DNA of 64,000 bases from Falsirhodobacter sp. 20TX0035 (GTDB lineage: Bacteria; Pseudomonadota; Alphaproteobacteria; Rhodobacterales; Rhodobacteraceae): NCBI RefSeq assembly GCF_028307215.1, contig NZ_JAQMHV010000003.1, forward strand, positions 62,001-126,000, written 5' to 3'. How positions within the stretch are numbered: position 1 is the first letter of the stretch; every line of letters starts with the position of its first letter. Positions 34,520 to 38,236 of the stretch are shown here, in pieces. Below the pieces are notes generated by a model. It searched no databases. It was not told the origin of the DNA and saw only the letters and a list, made by a program, of their open reading frames with translations. The position numbers and the translations under genes were made by a program.

Positions 34520-34956
34520 TCCGCGCCCTGCTTCTGTCGCTGCTGCTGGCTGGACCGGCCTTTGCTGTCCAGCCGGACGAAATCCTGTCGGACCCGGCGC
34601 TGGAGGCGCGCGCCCGTGCGATCAGCCAAGGACTGCGCTGCCCCGTCTGCCGGAACGAGAACATCGACGACAGCAACGCCGGCATCGCCCGCGATCTGCG
34701 CCTTCTGGTGCGCGAGCGGCTGGTGGCGGGCGACACGGATCAGGAGGCGCTGGACTTCATCGTCGGGCGGTACGGGGAATACGTGCTGCTGTCGCCCCCG
34801 GCGAAGGGGACGACGCTGATCCTCTGGGCCGCGGGGCCGCTTCTGCTGCTGGCGGGGGGCGGGATGGCCGTGGCCTTCCTGCGCCGTCGCCGTCCGGCGG
34901 TGGAGGAGCTGACGGAAGAGGAGCGCGCCCGGCTGGACACGCTCCTGAAAGACTAG
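34516..34956 (+). CDS. ccmH: Cytochrome c maturation protein CcmH
   Basis: A thiol-redox lipophilic protein that reduces apocytochrome c CxxCH cysteines before heme attachment. In 146 residues a signal peptide precedes the CxxC motif C42-P-V-C45 in LRCPVCRNENI, and a membrane helix lies near 102-121. This is the short CcmH/CycL form without the TPR domain; CcmI would be separate. ATG at 34516 overlaps the ccmF stop. Its TAG shares the palindrome CTAG (34953-34956) with the convergent ilvN stop. Confidence 0.95.
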   Translation: MIRALLLSLLLAGPAFAVQPDEILSDPALEARARAISQGLRCPVCRNENIDDSNAGIARDLRLLVRERLVAGDTDQEALDFIVGRYGEYVLLSPPAKGTTLILWAAGPLLLLAGGGMAVAFLRRRRPAVEELTEEERARLDTLLKD

Positions 34957-35483
34957 GCGCCGCGGGACAGGGCGGCGACGCCGGTCCGCGCGATCTCCCG
35001 CAGGCCCAGCGGGCGCATCAGGTCGGCAAAGGCGTCGATCTTCTCGGCCGTGCCCGTCATCTCGAACACGAAGCTTTCAAGCGTCGAATCCACCACGTTG
35101 GCGCGGAAGATCTCGGCCAGGCGCAGCGCCTCGATCCGCGCCTCGCCCTTGCCGGACACCTTGAAAAGCGCGAGTTCGCGCTGCACGGACGGGCCCTCGA
35201 CGGTCAGGTCGTGGACTTCGTGCACCGGGACCAGTCGGCCCAGCTGCGCCTTGATCTGGTCGATCACGATGGCCGTGCCGGTGGTGACCACGGTGATGCG
35301 GGACCGGTGGCCTTCATGGTCCACCTCCGCCACGGTCAGGCTTTCGATGTTGTAGCCGCGGCCCGAAAACAGGCCGATGACGCGGGCCAGCACGCCGCTT
35401 TCGTTGTCCACCATCACGGCCAAGGTGTGGGTCTCGATGATCTCGCCGTTCGTGTCGCGCATGTGATAGGCGCCCTTGTTCAT
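34953..35483 (-). CDS. ilvN: Acetolactate synthase small (regulatory) subunit
   Basis: The regulatory subunit of acetolactate synthase, giving valine feedback inhibition. The 176-residue form has an N-terminal ACT domain (HTLAVMVDNESGVLARVIGLF) and a C-terminal ACT-like domain. ATG at 35483 is chosen over 35489 because the SD AGGGG is 8 nt away rather than 2. It lies 11 bp after the ilvB stop, and both genes are controlled by the attenuator ahead of ilvB. By length it is an IlvH-type subunit. Confidence 0.94.
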   Translation of the reverse strand: MNKGAYHMRDTNGEIIETHTLAVMVDNESGVLARVIGLFSGRGYNIESLTVAEVDHEGHRSRITVVTTGTAIVIDQIKAQLGRLVPVHEVHDLTVEGPSVQRELALFKVSGKGEARIEALRLAEIFRANVVDSTLESFVFEMTGTAEKIDAFADLMRPLGLREIARTGVAALSRGA

Positions 35484-35494
35484 CGCCATTCCCC

Positions 35495-37246
35495 TTACAC
35501 CAGTGCCGCGCCGTGGGTCTCGATGATGCCCTGCGTTTCGGCCTCGCCCATCAGCATCTCGTTGTGGGCCTTGCCCGACGGGATCATGGGGAAGCAGTTC
35601 TCGTGCTTTTCCACAAGGCAGTCGAAGATGACGGGGCCGTCATAGCGGATCATCTCCAGGATGGCGTCGTCCAGATCGGCCGGGTCCTTGCACTGGATGC
35701 CCTTGCAGCCGAAGGCTTCGGCCAGCTTCACGAAATCGGGCAGGGATTCCGACCACGAGTGGCTGTAGCGCTCGCCATGGATCAGCTCCTGCCACTGGCG
35801 GACCATCCCAAGGCGTTCGTTGTTCAGGATGAACTGCTTCACGGGGGCGCGGAACTGCATGGCCGTGCCCATCTCCTGCATGTTCATCAGCCACGACGCC
35901 TCGCCGGCGACGTTGATGACCAAGGCTTCAGGGTGCGCGATCTGCACGCCGATCGACGCGGGCAGCCCGTAGCCCATGGTGCCGAGACCGCCCGAGGTCA
36001 TCCAGCGGTTCGGCGCCTCGAACCCGAGGAACTGCGCGGCCCACATCTGGTGCTGTCCGACCTCGGTCGTGATGTAGCGGTCCATGCCCTTGGTCAGGGC
36101 CTCCAGCCGCTCCAGCGCATATTGCGGCTTGATGGTCGCGGTGGAGGGGCGATAGCTGAGGCAACGCTTGGCGCGCCATTCGCCAATCTGCGCGTTCCAC
36201 GCCGCGATGGCGGGCGTGTTCAGCTTGCGGCCGCGTTCAGTCCACACGCGCAGCACGGCGGCCAACGTTTCGGCGATGTCGCCGACAATGCCCAGATCCA
36301 CCCGCACGATCTTGTTGATCGAGGACGGGTCGATGTCGACATGCACCTTCTTCGAATGGGGCGAGAAGTCGGCCAGCCGGCCCGTCACCCGGTCGTCGAA
36401 GCGGGCGCCGATGTTCAGCATCAGGTCGCAGCCGTGCATGGCCATGTTGGCCTCATAAAGCCCGTGCATCCCCAGCATCCCCAGCCAGCCCTTGCCGCTG
36501 GCCGGATAGGCCCCCAGACCCATCAGGGTGGACGTGACGGGGATCTGCGCCGCATCCGCGAGTTCGCGCAGGAGGCGCGACGCTTCGGGGCCCGAGTTGA
36601 TGACGCCGCCGCCGGTGTAGAGGACGGGGCGCTCGGCCGTCTCGATCATCTCCACCATCCGGGTGACGGCGTCGGTGTTGGGGGTCGTGCGGGGCTGGTA
36701 ATGGGGCACGCGGACCGCGTCGGGGGTCACATAGGTGCCTTCCGCGAACTGGATGTCCTTGGGGATGTCGATCAGCACCGGGCCGGGGCGGCCCTTCGTC
36801 GCGACGTGGAAGCCTTCGTGGATGGTGGCGGCCAGCTTTTCCGTGTCCTTTACCAGCCAGTTGTGCTTGGTGCAGGGGCGCGTGATGCCCACGGTGTCGG
36901 CCTCCTGGAAGCCGTCGGTGCCGATCAGGAAGGTGGGCACCTGGCCCGACAGCACCACCAGCGGGATTGAATCCAGCAGCGCGTCGGTCAGGCCCGTCAC
37001 GGCGTTGGTCGCACCGGGGCCGGAGGTGACGAGCACGACCCCCGGCTTGCCCGTGGACCGGGCATAGCCTTCGGCCATGTGGACGGCGCCCTGTTCGTGA
37101 CGGACGAGGATGTGGCGGATGTCGTTCTGCTGGAAGATCTCGTCATAGATCGGCAGCACGGCGCCGCCGGGATAGCCGAAGACGACCTCCACGCCCTGAT
37201 CCTTCAGGGCCTGCACCACCATTTTCGCACCGCTCATCCGTGTCAT
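35495..37246 (-). CDS. ilvB: Acetolactate synthase large subunit
   Basis: A thiamine-diphosphate enzyme making acetolactate and acetohydroxybutyrate, the first common step of valine, leucine and isoleucine synthesis. In 583 residues, conserved features are FGYPGGAVLPIYDE near the N-terminus, HEQGAVHMAEGYAR with the catalytic glutamate, and VAGEASWLMNMQEMG in the cofactor-binding region. ATG at 37246 is used, with GGAG 6 nt upstream. ATG at 37273 would lie only 2 bases past the attenuator's T run. It is the first gene of ilvBN. FAD is expected from the family. Confidence 0.96.
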   Translation of the reverse strand: MTRMSGAKMVVQALKDQGVEVVFGYPGGAVLPIYDEIFQQNDIRHILVRHEQGAVHMAEGYARSTGKPGVVLVTSGPGATNAVTGLTDALLDSIPLVVLSGQVPTFLIGTDGFQEADTVGITRPCTKHNWLVKDTEKLAATIHEGFHVATKGRPGPVLIDIPKDIQFAEGTYVTPDAVRVPHYQPRTTPNTDAVTRMVEMIETAERPVLYTGGGVINSGPEASRLLRELADAAQIPVTSTLMGLGAYPASGKGWLGMLGMHGLYEANMAMHGCDLMLNIGARFDDRVTGRLADFSPHSKKVHVDIDPSSINKIVRVDLGIVGDIAETLAAVLRVWTERGRKLNTPAIAAWNAQIGEWRAKRCLSYRPSTATIKPQYALERLEALTKGMDRYITTEVGQHQMWAAQFLGFEAPNRWMTSGGLGTMGYGLPASIGVQIAHPEALVINVAGEASWLMNMQEMGTAMQFRAPVKQFILNNERLGMVRQWQELIHGERYSHSWSESLPDFVKLAEAFGCKGIQCKDPADLDDAILEMIRYDGPVIFDCLVEKHENCFPMIPSGKAHNEMLMGEAETQGIIETHGAALV

Positions 37247-37275
37247 CGGAAACTCCGTATCATCGTCGGCCATAG

Positions 37276-37299
37276 AAAAGCCCCCGAAAGGTCAGGGGC
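37276..37299 (-). terminator. Attenuator terminator ahead of ilvB
   Basis: On the reverse strand GCCCCTGA (37292-37299) pairs with TCGGGGGC (37280-37287), one pair being G-U, across a CCTT loop, followed by TTTT (37276-37279). This is the only hairpin I found in the window with a clean T run. It lies between the leader peptide and ilvB. Confidence 0.8.
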
Positions 37300-37340
37300 G
37301 CATGGGAATCGGTCCGGGTCGCCGTCACTGGCCCATGCGC
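37298..37340 (-). promoter_or_regulatory. Antiterminator helix of the ilvBN attenuator
   Basis: GCGCATGGG inside the leader ORF (37332-37340) is perfectly complementary to CCCATGCGC (37298-37306). The second arm overlaps the terminator's 5' arm by 2 bases and abuts its remaining helix, so the two are probably exclusive. A ribosome at the leader stop would cover the first arm; a ribosome stalled at the Ile/Val/Leu codons would leave it free. Confidence 0.65.
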
Positions 37341-37372
37341 GTCATTTCAAAGATAAGCACGATGGATGTCAC
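37325..37372 (-). CDS. ilvBN leader peptide
   Basis: A 15-codon ORF, MTSIVLIFEMTRMGQ, starting GTG at 37372 and ending TGA at 37327-37325. A strong SD (AAGGAGG) lies 7 nt upstream. Codons 4-7 are ATC, GTG, CTT and ATC, four consecutive branched-chain residues, which is the control-codon pattern of ilv attenuators. The downstream order is antiterminator, terminator, ilvB. It is the regulatory element rather than a functional protein. It is too short for standard gene finders. Confidence 0.7.
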   Translation of the reverse strand: MTSIVLIFEMTRMGQ

Positions 37373-37398
37373 CGCACCCCCTCCTTCGTCGTGAAGGT

Positions 37399-37427
37399 GG
37401 GATATAAGCCGTGACCGGTGGCGTCAA
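37399..37427 (-). promoter_or_regulatory. Candidate ilvBN promoter
   Basis: TTGACG (37422-37427) lies upstream of TTATATCCC. The -10 is TATATC at 15-bp or TATCCC at 17-bp spacing. The leader RNA would start near 37394, about 20 nt before the leader-peptide GTG. Confidence 0.4.
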
Positions 37428-37438
37428 TGCGTTAATTG

Positions 37439-37463: not shown

Positions 37464-38069
37464 TTATTCCCGAGGGTCGTCATCCCGCGATATTTTATGA
37501 TCCGAAGAGTGGACCAGCCGCAGAGCCGGACGGCCGGGCGCGAAGGGCGCCGCCGGTTCGGCGAAGCCCGCCCCCGGTTCCAGCACCCCTACGCGTTCGG
37601 ACAGCACCCGGAGTGGGCGGAAGCGGCGGGGCGGGCGGCCGATCAGGCCCTCCGTCTCGATGCAGCCCAGGGCCATGTCCACGCCGCGGAAGGTCTGCAG
37701 GGGCAAGAGCACGATCCGGGCGCCAAGGCGCGCGGGGCCCGGCACGGCGCTGGCCAGTTCCATGTCCAGAATGGCGGGATCGTGGAAGACGCGGTCCACC
37801 TGCGACACCAGCGCCTCACGCTCTCCCGGGTCGATCAGGGACAGAAAGGGCATGCCGCGCACGTCCATGCCCATGATCTCGGGCAGAAGGGCGCCGGTGT
37901 GGCGAAAGCGCACGACCGACGGGGCCACATGCTCCAGCAGGAAGACGTTGGGCAGCAGGTCGGGCAGGGCGCGCGGGTCCACGTCCGCGCGCTGGGGCAG
38001 GGCGCCGTTCTTGCGAAGACCCTCCCAATAGGCGCGCACGCGCGTGATGTGTTTCGGCCGCACTGTCAT
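37464..38069 (-). CDS. PAS domain protein (PAS_5/DUF1457 type)
   Basis: A 201-residue soluble protein with one PAS-like domain covering roughly residues 8-150: ITRVRAYWEGLRKNGALPQR opens the domain, then PNVFLLEH, RFRHTGALLPEIMG and ARIVLLPLQTF. Proteins of this type are frequent in alphaproteobacteria and have no attached output domain. ATG at 38069 follows AAAGG; longer in-frame starts exist at 38087 and 38108. It is divergent from gmk. The sensed signal and partner are unknown. Confidence 0.75.
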   Translation of the reverse strand: MTVRPKHITRVRAYWEGLRKNGALPQRADVDPRALPDLLPNVFLLEHVAPSVVRFRHTGALLPEIMGMDVRGMPFLSLIDPGEREALVSQVDRVFHDPAILDMELASAVPGPARLGARIVLLPLQTFRGVDMALGCIETEGLIGRPPRRFRPLRVLSERVGVLEPGAGFAEPAAPFAPGRPALRLVHSSDHKISRDDDPRE

Positions 38070-38236
38070 CCGACCTTTCGGCACCATCCTTAACAAGAAA
38101 TCAACCATCAACCTGCAACCCTCAACCGGTCGCACGGGCAGAACACGCCCGCACATATACTTTTACACGGCCGTAATTAGCACCATTCCTCGCGGAGTGC
38201 CGGAAAAGGTGAACAAATGGTTAAAAAGTCCCGCGC

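Follow-up and report, generated by a model that had tools for sequence, protein, structure and literature searches.

In the trp and ilvGMEDA attenuators of Escherichia coli, the leader RNA has a 1:2 hairpin and the antiterminator covers most of the 5′ arm of the terminator. The present analysis concerns an attenuator-like element that lies upstream of ilvBN, on the minus strand of a 64,000-nucleotide (nt) stretch of DNA from Falsirhodobacter sp. 20TX0035 (contig NZ_JAQMHV010000003.1, positions 62,001 to 126,000), referred to here as the window. For the same operon in Caulobacter crescentus, attenuation in the ilvBN (ilvIH) leader was reported by Tarleton, Malakooti and Ely in 1994, as described in PMC4117421, and leader-peptide attenuation of ilvIH/ilvB in alphaproteobacteria was predicted by Vitreschak et al. 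in 2004, as cited in PMC2573895 and PMC1273637. In the Rhodobacterales, the section of PMC8632094 that deals with the uORFC-8-2 motif, found upstream of cysS, presents it as an attenuator with two stems. Going by these accounts, attenuation of ilvBN/ilvIH in alphaproteobacteria is already published, so the kind of regulator is known.

The element in the window is very probably a real attenuator of this known kind, in a new structural variant. From comparison of related sequences, we consider it highly likely that it serves as a ribosome-mediated transcription attenuator of ilvBN. The conservation of its parts is a comparative result, and the regulation of ilvBN is what we infer from that result.

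The element and its parts

The region upstream of ilvB, between 37246 and 37430 on the minus strand, contains a promoter, a Shine–Dalgarno (SD) sequence, a leader open reading frame (ORF), an inverted pair of arms, a terminator and a short U-tract. A preliminary description, made from the letters of the window, had proposed a promoter, an SD, a 15-codon leader, arms and a terminator on this strand, and all were found in this region. The features, with the evidence for each, are as follows.

37422..37427 (−): −35 element TTGACG (window sequence; TTGAC kept in relatives)
37401..37406 (−): −10 element TATATC, spacer of 17 nt (window sequence and relatives)
37380..37386 (−): leader SD, AAGGAGG (window sequence)
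37325..37372 (−): leader ORF VTSIVLIFEMTRMGQ-stop, 15 codons, GTG start at 37370-37372 and TGA stop at 37325-37327 (equivalents in relatives)
37352..37363 (−): control codons ATC GTG CTT ATC, for Ile-Val-Leu-Ile (window sequence and relatives)
37332..37340 (−): arm 1, GCGCATGGG, inside the final leader codons (window sequence and covariation)
37322..37331 (−): stop-codon hairpin CCA-GUGA-CGG, GNRA-type loop, with an A.C mismatch in the window (covariation in relatives)
37298..37306 (−): arm 2, CCCATGCGC (window sequence and covariation)
37280..37299 (−): intrinsic terminator GCCCCTGA-CCTT-TCGGGGGC, its first 2 nt being the last 2 nt of arm 2 (folding and covariation)
37274..37279 (−): U-rich tract TTTTCT (window sequence)
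37253..37257 (−): ilvB SD, CGGAG (window sequence)
35495..37246 (−): ilvB, acetolactate synthase large subunit, 583 amino acids (ORF)
34953..35489 (−): ilvN, acetolactate synthase small subunit (ORF)

The ORF next to the leader we take to be ilvB from its protein family, and its neighbour is presumably ilvN, from its sequence and position. The arms form a 9-nt inverted pair. Both the arms and the terminator of the preliminary description are present, with the correction that the terminator folds as 8 bp and that arm 2 enters it over 2 nt only. The ilvB start proposed there, the ATG at 37246, is upheld: in relatives, ilvB starts at the corresponding position, preceded by an SD-like sequence, and the alternative ATG at 37273, with which the ilvB ORF would be longer, abuts the U-tract. 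A pattern built from the arms and the stop codon occurs once in the window and in none of 100 shuffles; as this pattern was written after the fact, the real test of chance is the comparative one. In an ordinary Rfam scan, a tRNA was the sole match in the window.

Conservation in the family

Regions upstream of ilvB were gathered from genome searches, genome fetches and 80 named loci, giving 259 usable sequences, of which 250 were distinct. Of these, 212 were counted as family, meaning the GTDB-style family of the window plus the named loci, which were assumed to belong to it without individual checks; the 38 outside the family include the paralogue carried by the genome of the window itself (L002). 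A strict anatomical test (a terminator, a helix of at least 8 bp, an SD, and a leader with at least four Ile/Leu/Val in five codons) was passed by 166 of the 212 family upstreams, as against none of 1060 dinucleotide shuffles, and by 2 of the 38 upstreams from outside. The leader ORF, whose conservation the preliminary description had made a check on its proposal, is thus kept across the family, with equivalent leaders in relatives.

The canonical arm pair is kept in 181 of the 212 distinct family upstreams (67 of 77 among the named loci). This set was chosen by similarity to the arms, with up to 4 mismatches allowed in 18 nt, so that arm conservation within it is inflated. Two members with no TTTT tract (L066 and L230) were left out, and the remaining 179 segments were thinned to 151, of which 150 were aligned, L069 being omitted for its wrong register. 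The promoter is conserved as well: of 179 relatives, 178 have TTGAC ahead of the leader, and 159 have the fuller form TTGACn-N16-18-TAnnnT. The six Paracoccus ilvB upstreams among the named loci (L116, L121, L132, L138, L142 and L151) all lack the canonical arms and the attenuator.

Across the leaders, the commonest residues read M-x-x-L-V-V-I-V-G-x-x-R-M-G-R-stop, and 169 of 178 leaders have at least four Ile/Leu/Val among seven aligned codons. Rare codons are strongly enriched: GTA makes up 54.8% of leader Val codons as against 3.6% in 112 ilvB genes, and CTA 35.7% of leader Leu codons as against 1.1%. The spacing is nearly fixed. From the start of arm 1 to the first nucleotide of the stop codon, the distance is 13 nt in 178 of 181 leaders. 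Upstream of arm 1, the final codon for Ile, Leu or Val most often starts at a distance of 11 nt (143 of 178 leaders); in the window and eight other leaders, this distance is 14 nt. With the ribosome footprint taken as background knowledge, a ribosome stalled on a codon 11 nt ahead of arm 1 should leave that arm free. Thus, the spacing fits the earlier proposal that a ribosome at the leader stop would cover arm 1 and that a stalled one would free it.

Other alphaproteobacterial ilvB genes (L043, L248, L249, L252 and L257) are preceded by leader ORFs rich in branched-chain amino acid (BCAA) codons, e.g. MNRTLVLIPWSLSEWS-stop, most with a terminator call. Their architecture is different, and four of them (L043, L248, L252 and L257) look like attenuators of another form.

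Three helices

Covariation was scored on the 150 aligned leaders, over 18 pairs in three helices, with shuffles and slid registers as controls. Two-sided change occurs in 12 of the 18 pairs overall, where the shuffled mean is 3.8 and none of 500 shuffles reaches 12; slid registers give 2 to 7 such pairs. The arm helix is 98.0% paired and the six inner terminator pairs are 92.3% paired. The compensatory changes that the preliminary description had looked to in both helices are found in five of the six terminator pairs (36 cells) and in four of the nine arm pairs, in the latter over few cells.

The third helix, of three pairs flanking the leader stop codon, is 88.7% paired, and all three pairs change on both sides (13 cells). 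On this comparative evidence, it is a covarying hairpin that holds the stop codon of the leader. It was absent from the earlier model, in which only two helices were needed, and that part of the model finds no support as worded. The hairpin is mostly CCG-GUAA-CGG, with variants such as UCU-GUAA-AGA (L018), CGG-GUAA-CCG (L061) and GCG-GUAA-CGC (L059). By a loose criterion, it is present in 177 of 178 leaders, 136 of them with a GNRA loop; the same criterion shifted elsewhere is satisfied in 54 to 143 of the 178, so that the count is a weak test and the case rests on the covariation. On the same alignment, RNAalifold recovered the terminator in full and the arm helix in part, giving the shared nucleotides to the terminator, and it did not return the stop hairpin.

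A conserved 1:2 hairpin was not found among the leaders. The mean probability (P) that arm 1 pairs upstream is 0.08, as against 0.12 with the upstream sequence shuffled, and P exceeds 0.5 in 5 of 179 leaders as against 26 of 537 shuffled ones. The minimum-energy fold of a 133-nt piece of the window does pair arm 1 upstream, whereas the centroid does not; P falls to 0.06 in the window with the 5′ end trimmed, and the family shows no such pairing beyond shuffles. The candidate was rejected, and the earlier statement that there is no classical 1:2 pause hairpin holds good.

Weighing the evidence

A number of observations weigh against an attenuator of this design. Within the genus of the window, one relative (L003) lacks the element at ilvB, and the leaders of two others, MSAVMVHGTTRRMDR-stop (L004) and MAMNTVSRGSGRKDR-stop (L006), have lost most of their control codons. 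Despite this near loss, the fold in these two still scores 71.9 and 59.1 bits; either regulation is decaying in these copies or the fold serves some other purpose as well. The canonical arms are missing in 31 of the 212 family upstreams. The copy in the window has a short U-tract, a mismatch in its stop hairpin, and control codons other than the rare ones. Covariation in the arm helix is thin (7 two-sided cells of 1350), a slid control reaches 48 two-sided cells where the real registers have 56, and 28 of those 56 sit at a single terminator pair, at which 64 leaders are unpaired. Among about a dozen divergent members of the family, the best helix lies clear of the terminator altogether, although some of these helices may be spurious. 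In the folding models, masking arm 1 gives the basal pair of the terminator a mean P of 0.99, and with arm 1 free it still keeps 0.70 (partition function, 175 leaders; 0.83 in the window); a fall of more than 0.5 is seen in only 30 of the 175 leaders, and one of more than 0.2 in 102. Lastly, when a 78-nt piece of the window is folded, the arm helix and the terminator form together.

The folding results bear chiefly on the simplest form of the mechanism, in which two helices compete and the arm helix sequesters the 5′ arm of the terminator and so prevents it. Arm 1 sits where a ribosome at the stop codon would cover it, both helices covary to some degree, and in the copies of the fold that precede a major facilitator superfamily (MFS) transporter, described below, the terminators start earlier, so that by eye the overlap looks longer. 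However, the 9-nt core of arm 2 overlaps the terminator by 2 nt in 146 of 175 leaders and by 1 nt in 27, and the inner terminator pairs are left untouched. Since both helices can coexist in the folding models, sequestration by itself appears insufficient. The exclusion of terminator by antiterminator, as first proposed, is thus not borne out in its simple form, which we regard as rather unlikely. The shared pairs stand beside the U-tract, and there the models do show a difference: closing the U-tract-proximal pairs gains −6.0 kcal/mol with arm 1 covered and −1.1 with arm 1 free (means of 175 leaders), and −6.6 as against −1.2 kcal/mol in the window. We therefore propose, from these modelled energies, that the arm helix trims the terminator at its foot: lying flush against it, the helix may act by offsetting the energy that would be gained on closing the pairs next to the U-tract.

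Readings other than attenuation have less in their favour. That the leader RNA, made by premature termination, is mainly a trans-acting small RNA (sRNA) or a protein-binding element would account for arms that vary less than pairing needs; the related element Atu_C8 (RF02502) is filed by Rfam as an sRNA, and there is a precedent in a Sinorhizobium trp leader peptide, which reportedly acts in trans (PMC7298713). The rare control codons, the fixed stop spacing and the position ahead of ilvB fit cis attenuation instead, and the conservation of the arms is inflated by the partial choice of the canonical set on arm sequence, so that this alternative appears improbable. A metabolite riboswitch, with the arm helix and stop hairpin as its aptamer, would agree with the compact fold, the narrow range of loop lengths and the adjoining terminator; given a leader signature with rare BCAA codons, and no riboswitch family among the Rfam matches to the region, it is very improbable. 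Least credible of all is a terminator of the upstream gene joined to a chance ORF: an ORF at 37464-38156 does share the strand, with about 190 nt between its end and the terminator, but a conserved promoter stands between them and the leader frame is kept across the family.

A possible mechanism

In the attenuator that we propose, RNA polymerase would start about 25 nt upstream of the leader, at a start site predicted from the conserved promoter, and a ribosome would translate the 15 codons. Given charged tRNAs for Ile, Val and Leu, it would reach the stop codon and cover arm 1; the full 8-bp terminator could then close, and transcription would stop before ilvB. A ribosome stalled on the Ile-Val-Leu-Ile codons would have its front edge just short of arm 1, which could pair with arm 2 before the 3′ arm of the terminator emerges, perhaps aided by the stop-codon hairpin. 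The arm helix would thereby take the two basal terminator nucleotides beside the U-tract, leaving little closing gain with the helices flush, and polymerase would presumably read through into ilvB. As there is no 1:2 hairpin, an untranslated leader should also read through, in contrast to the trp leader of E. coli.

The same fold ahead of a transporter

A covariance model (R1) was built from the three helices. At E 0.01, counting weak matches and those away from the locus, it matched in 120 of 129 family genomes; at E 0.001, it matched in 59 of 289 class genomes, mostly below 30 bits. Ten class matches score at least 30 bits: four are family ilvB copies, and each of the remaining six (L302-L307), which come from other families, stands ahead of an MFS transporter gene. 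Six family matches of at least 30 bits lie away from ilvB, and four of them precede the same transporter (L296, L297, L299 and L300). The other two, L298 (37.9 bits) and L309 (32.1 bits), have neither the MFS gene nor ilvB behind them and were not counted as members; L298:1340-1408 has a Val-containing frame that lacks a stop codon where one is expected, and it is perhaps a degenerate copy or a chance match. Two of the transporter copies pass TIGR00710, the Bcr/CflA family.

When 30 class loci were fetched with the transporter protein, 7 had a well-placed terminator, 6 of these having at least three Ile/Leu/Val in five leader codons; all 7 fall among the 12 loci with at least 48% transporter identity. 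Together with the four family loci, this gives 11 MFS loci with the element, of which 7 have leaders with four or five Ile/Leu/Val in five codons (for example MNPKSVVVVVSRRCMVR-stop and MHILIVVVGERRLDR-stop), 2 have three and 2 have fewer. Eight of 25 plasmid hits were examined. Three of these records, from Roseobacteraceae, have an R1 match at 51 to 68 bits (one of the leaders being MTVKFVVVVSKRRMVR-stop, in Roseobacter denitrificans pTB1), three from Hyphomicrobiales match RF02502 at 105 to 112 bits, and the record L343 has no R1 match. In the remaining one, a Mesorhizobium MFS homologue has a TPP riboswitch upstream instead (L347:256-372, 75.4 bits). The fold, with a mostly Val-rich leader, was seen before the Bcr/CflA-type MFS gene at L296, L297, L299, L300, L302-L308, L341, L342 and L344, and it spans several alphaproteobacterial families. 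The sequences of these leaders suggest that the transporter behind them is valine-linked.

In anatomy, the element of the window is a relative of RF02502, but it matches that family below threshold (20.6 bits, E 0.086, where the gathering score is 50 bits) and so is not a filed member. RF02502 matched at E 0.001 in 5 of 289 class genomes, only G143 being above the cut-off. Sub-threshold matches in G225 and G288 fall at ilvB; those in G128 and G311 resemble, on visual inspection, unrelated terminators and were set aside. The four above-threshold loci examined (L340:195-314, L345:195-314 and L346:195-315 from Hyphomicrobiales, and L308:2229-2348 from G143) all lie upstream of the same MFS gene and have BCAA-rich leaders like MKIAMVLVVVIGRMGRMV-stop, in which RMG falls at arm 1 and a hairpin holds the stop codon; three of them were reached by starting from the transporter, and the G143 copy alone was found independently. 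The arm sequence (37332-37340 and 37298-37306 in the window, and its relatives) is less variable than pairing needs and recurs in the RF02502 copies at another gene, in a set partly selected on it.

Possibly, all of these belong to one alphaproteobacterial stop-hairpin attenuator module, which would stand ahead of two genes unrelated to each other, ilvB in Rhodobacterales and the Bcr/CflA-type MFS transporter in several families, and would consist of a BCAA- or Val-rich leader, the near-constant arms CGCATGGG/CCCATGCG, a stop hairpin and a terminator that is clipped at its base rather than sequestered. The transporter would then take part in BCAA physiology, Atu_C8 would be its attenuated leader, and the frozen arms would point to a second role, in trans or bound by protein. 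We put this forward tentatively and rate it as doubtful, because only 7 of the 11 MFS leaders have at least four Ile/Leu/Val in five codons and because the search that led to three of the four RF02502 loci began at the transporter. As a lead, the transporter and Atu_C8 are more interesting than the ilvBN finding itself.

Significance and comparison with known systems

If the proposal is correct, the state of this attenuator turns on 2 nt at the foot of its terminator, for which two helices compete, and the stop codon of its leader is held in a conserved hairpin; such a design is simpler than the classical leader and testable. It would also provide start-site and regulatory annotation for ilvB in many Rhodobacteraceae, suggest a function for an Rfam entry that is classed as an sRNA, and link a little-understood branch of MFS transporters to valine supply. 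A search of the open-access literature found nothing on a stop-codon hairpin in such leaders, nothing on the transporter with this leader and nothing on Atu_C8 as an attenuator.

Like the E. coli trp and ilvGMEDA attenuators, the element would let the position of the ribosome choose between antiterminator and terminator; unlike them, it has no conserved 1:2 hairpin, and its overlap is about 2 nt. With RF02502 Atu_C8 ("Rhizobiales sRNA"), it shares the arms GCGCATGGG/CCCATGCGC, a leader with RMG, a stop codon in a hairpin and a terminator, whereas the examined copies of that family stand before the MFS transporter rather than ilvB and have a longer stop hairpin, and two of them (L308 and L340) have 7 nt between arm 2 and the terminator. 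The uORFC-8-2 motif, from the same bacterial order, likewise has two prominent stems, a terminator and a leader with control codons; in that motif, the Cys codons lie inside the first stem, and the section devoted to it in PMC8632094 does not mention a stop-codon hairpin. The predictions of Vitreschak et al., as cited in PMC2573895 and PMC1273637, likewise concern the acetolactate synthase operon in alphaproteobacteria. The Caulobacter ilvBN leader, as PMC4117421 describes it, belongs to the same class and the same operon, with tandem Ile/Val codons in its leader and a terminator before the operon.

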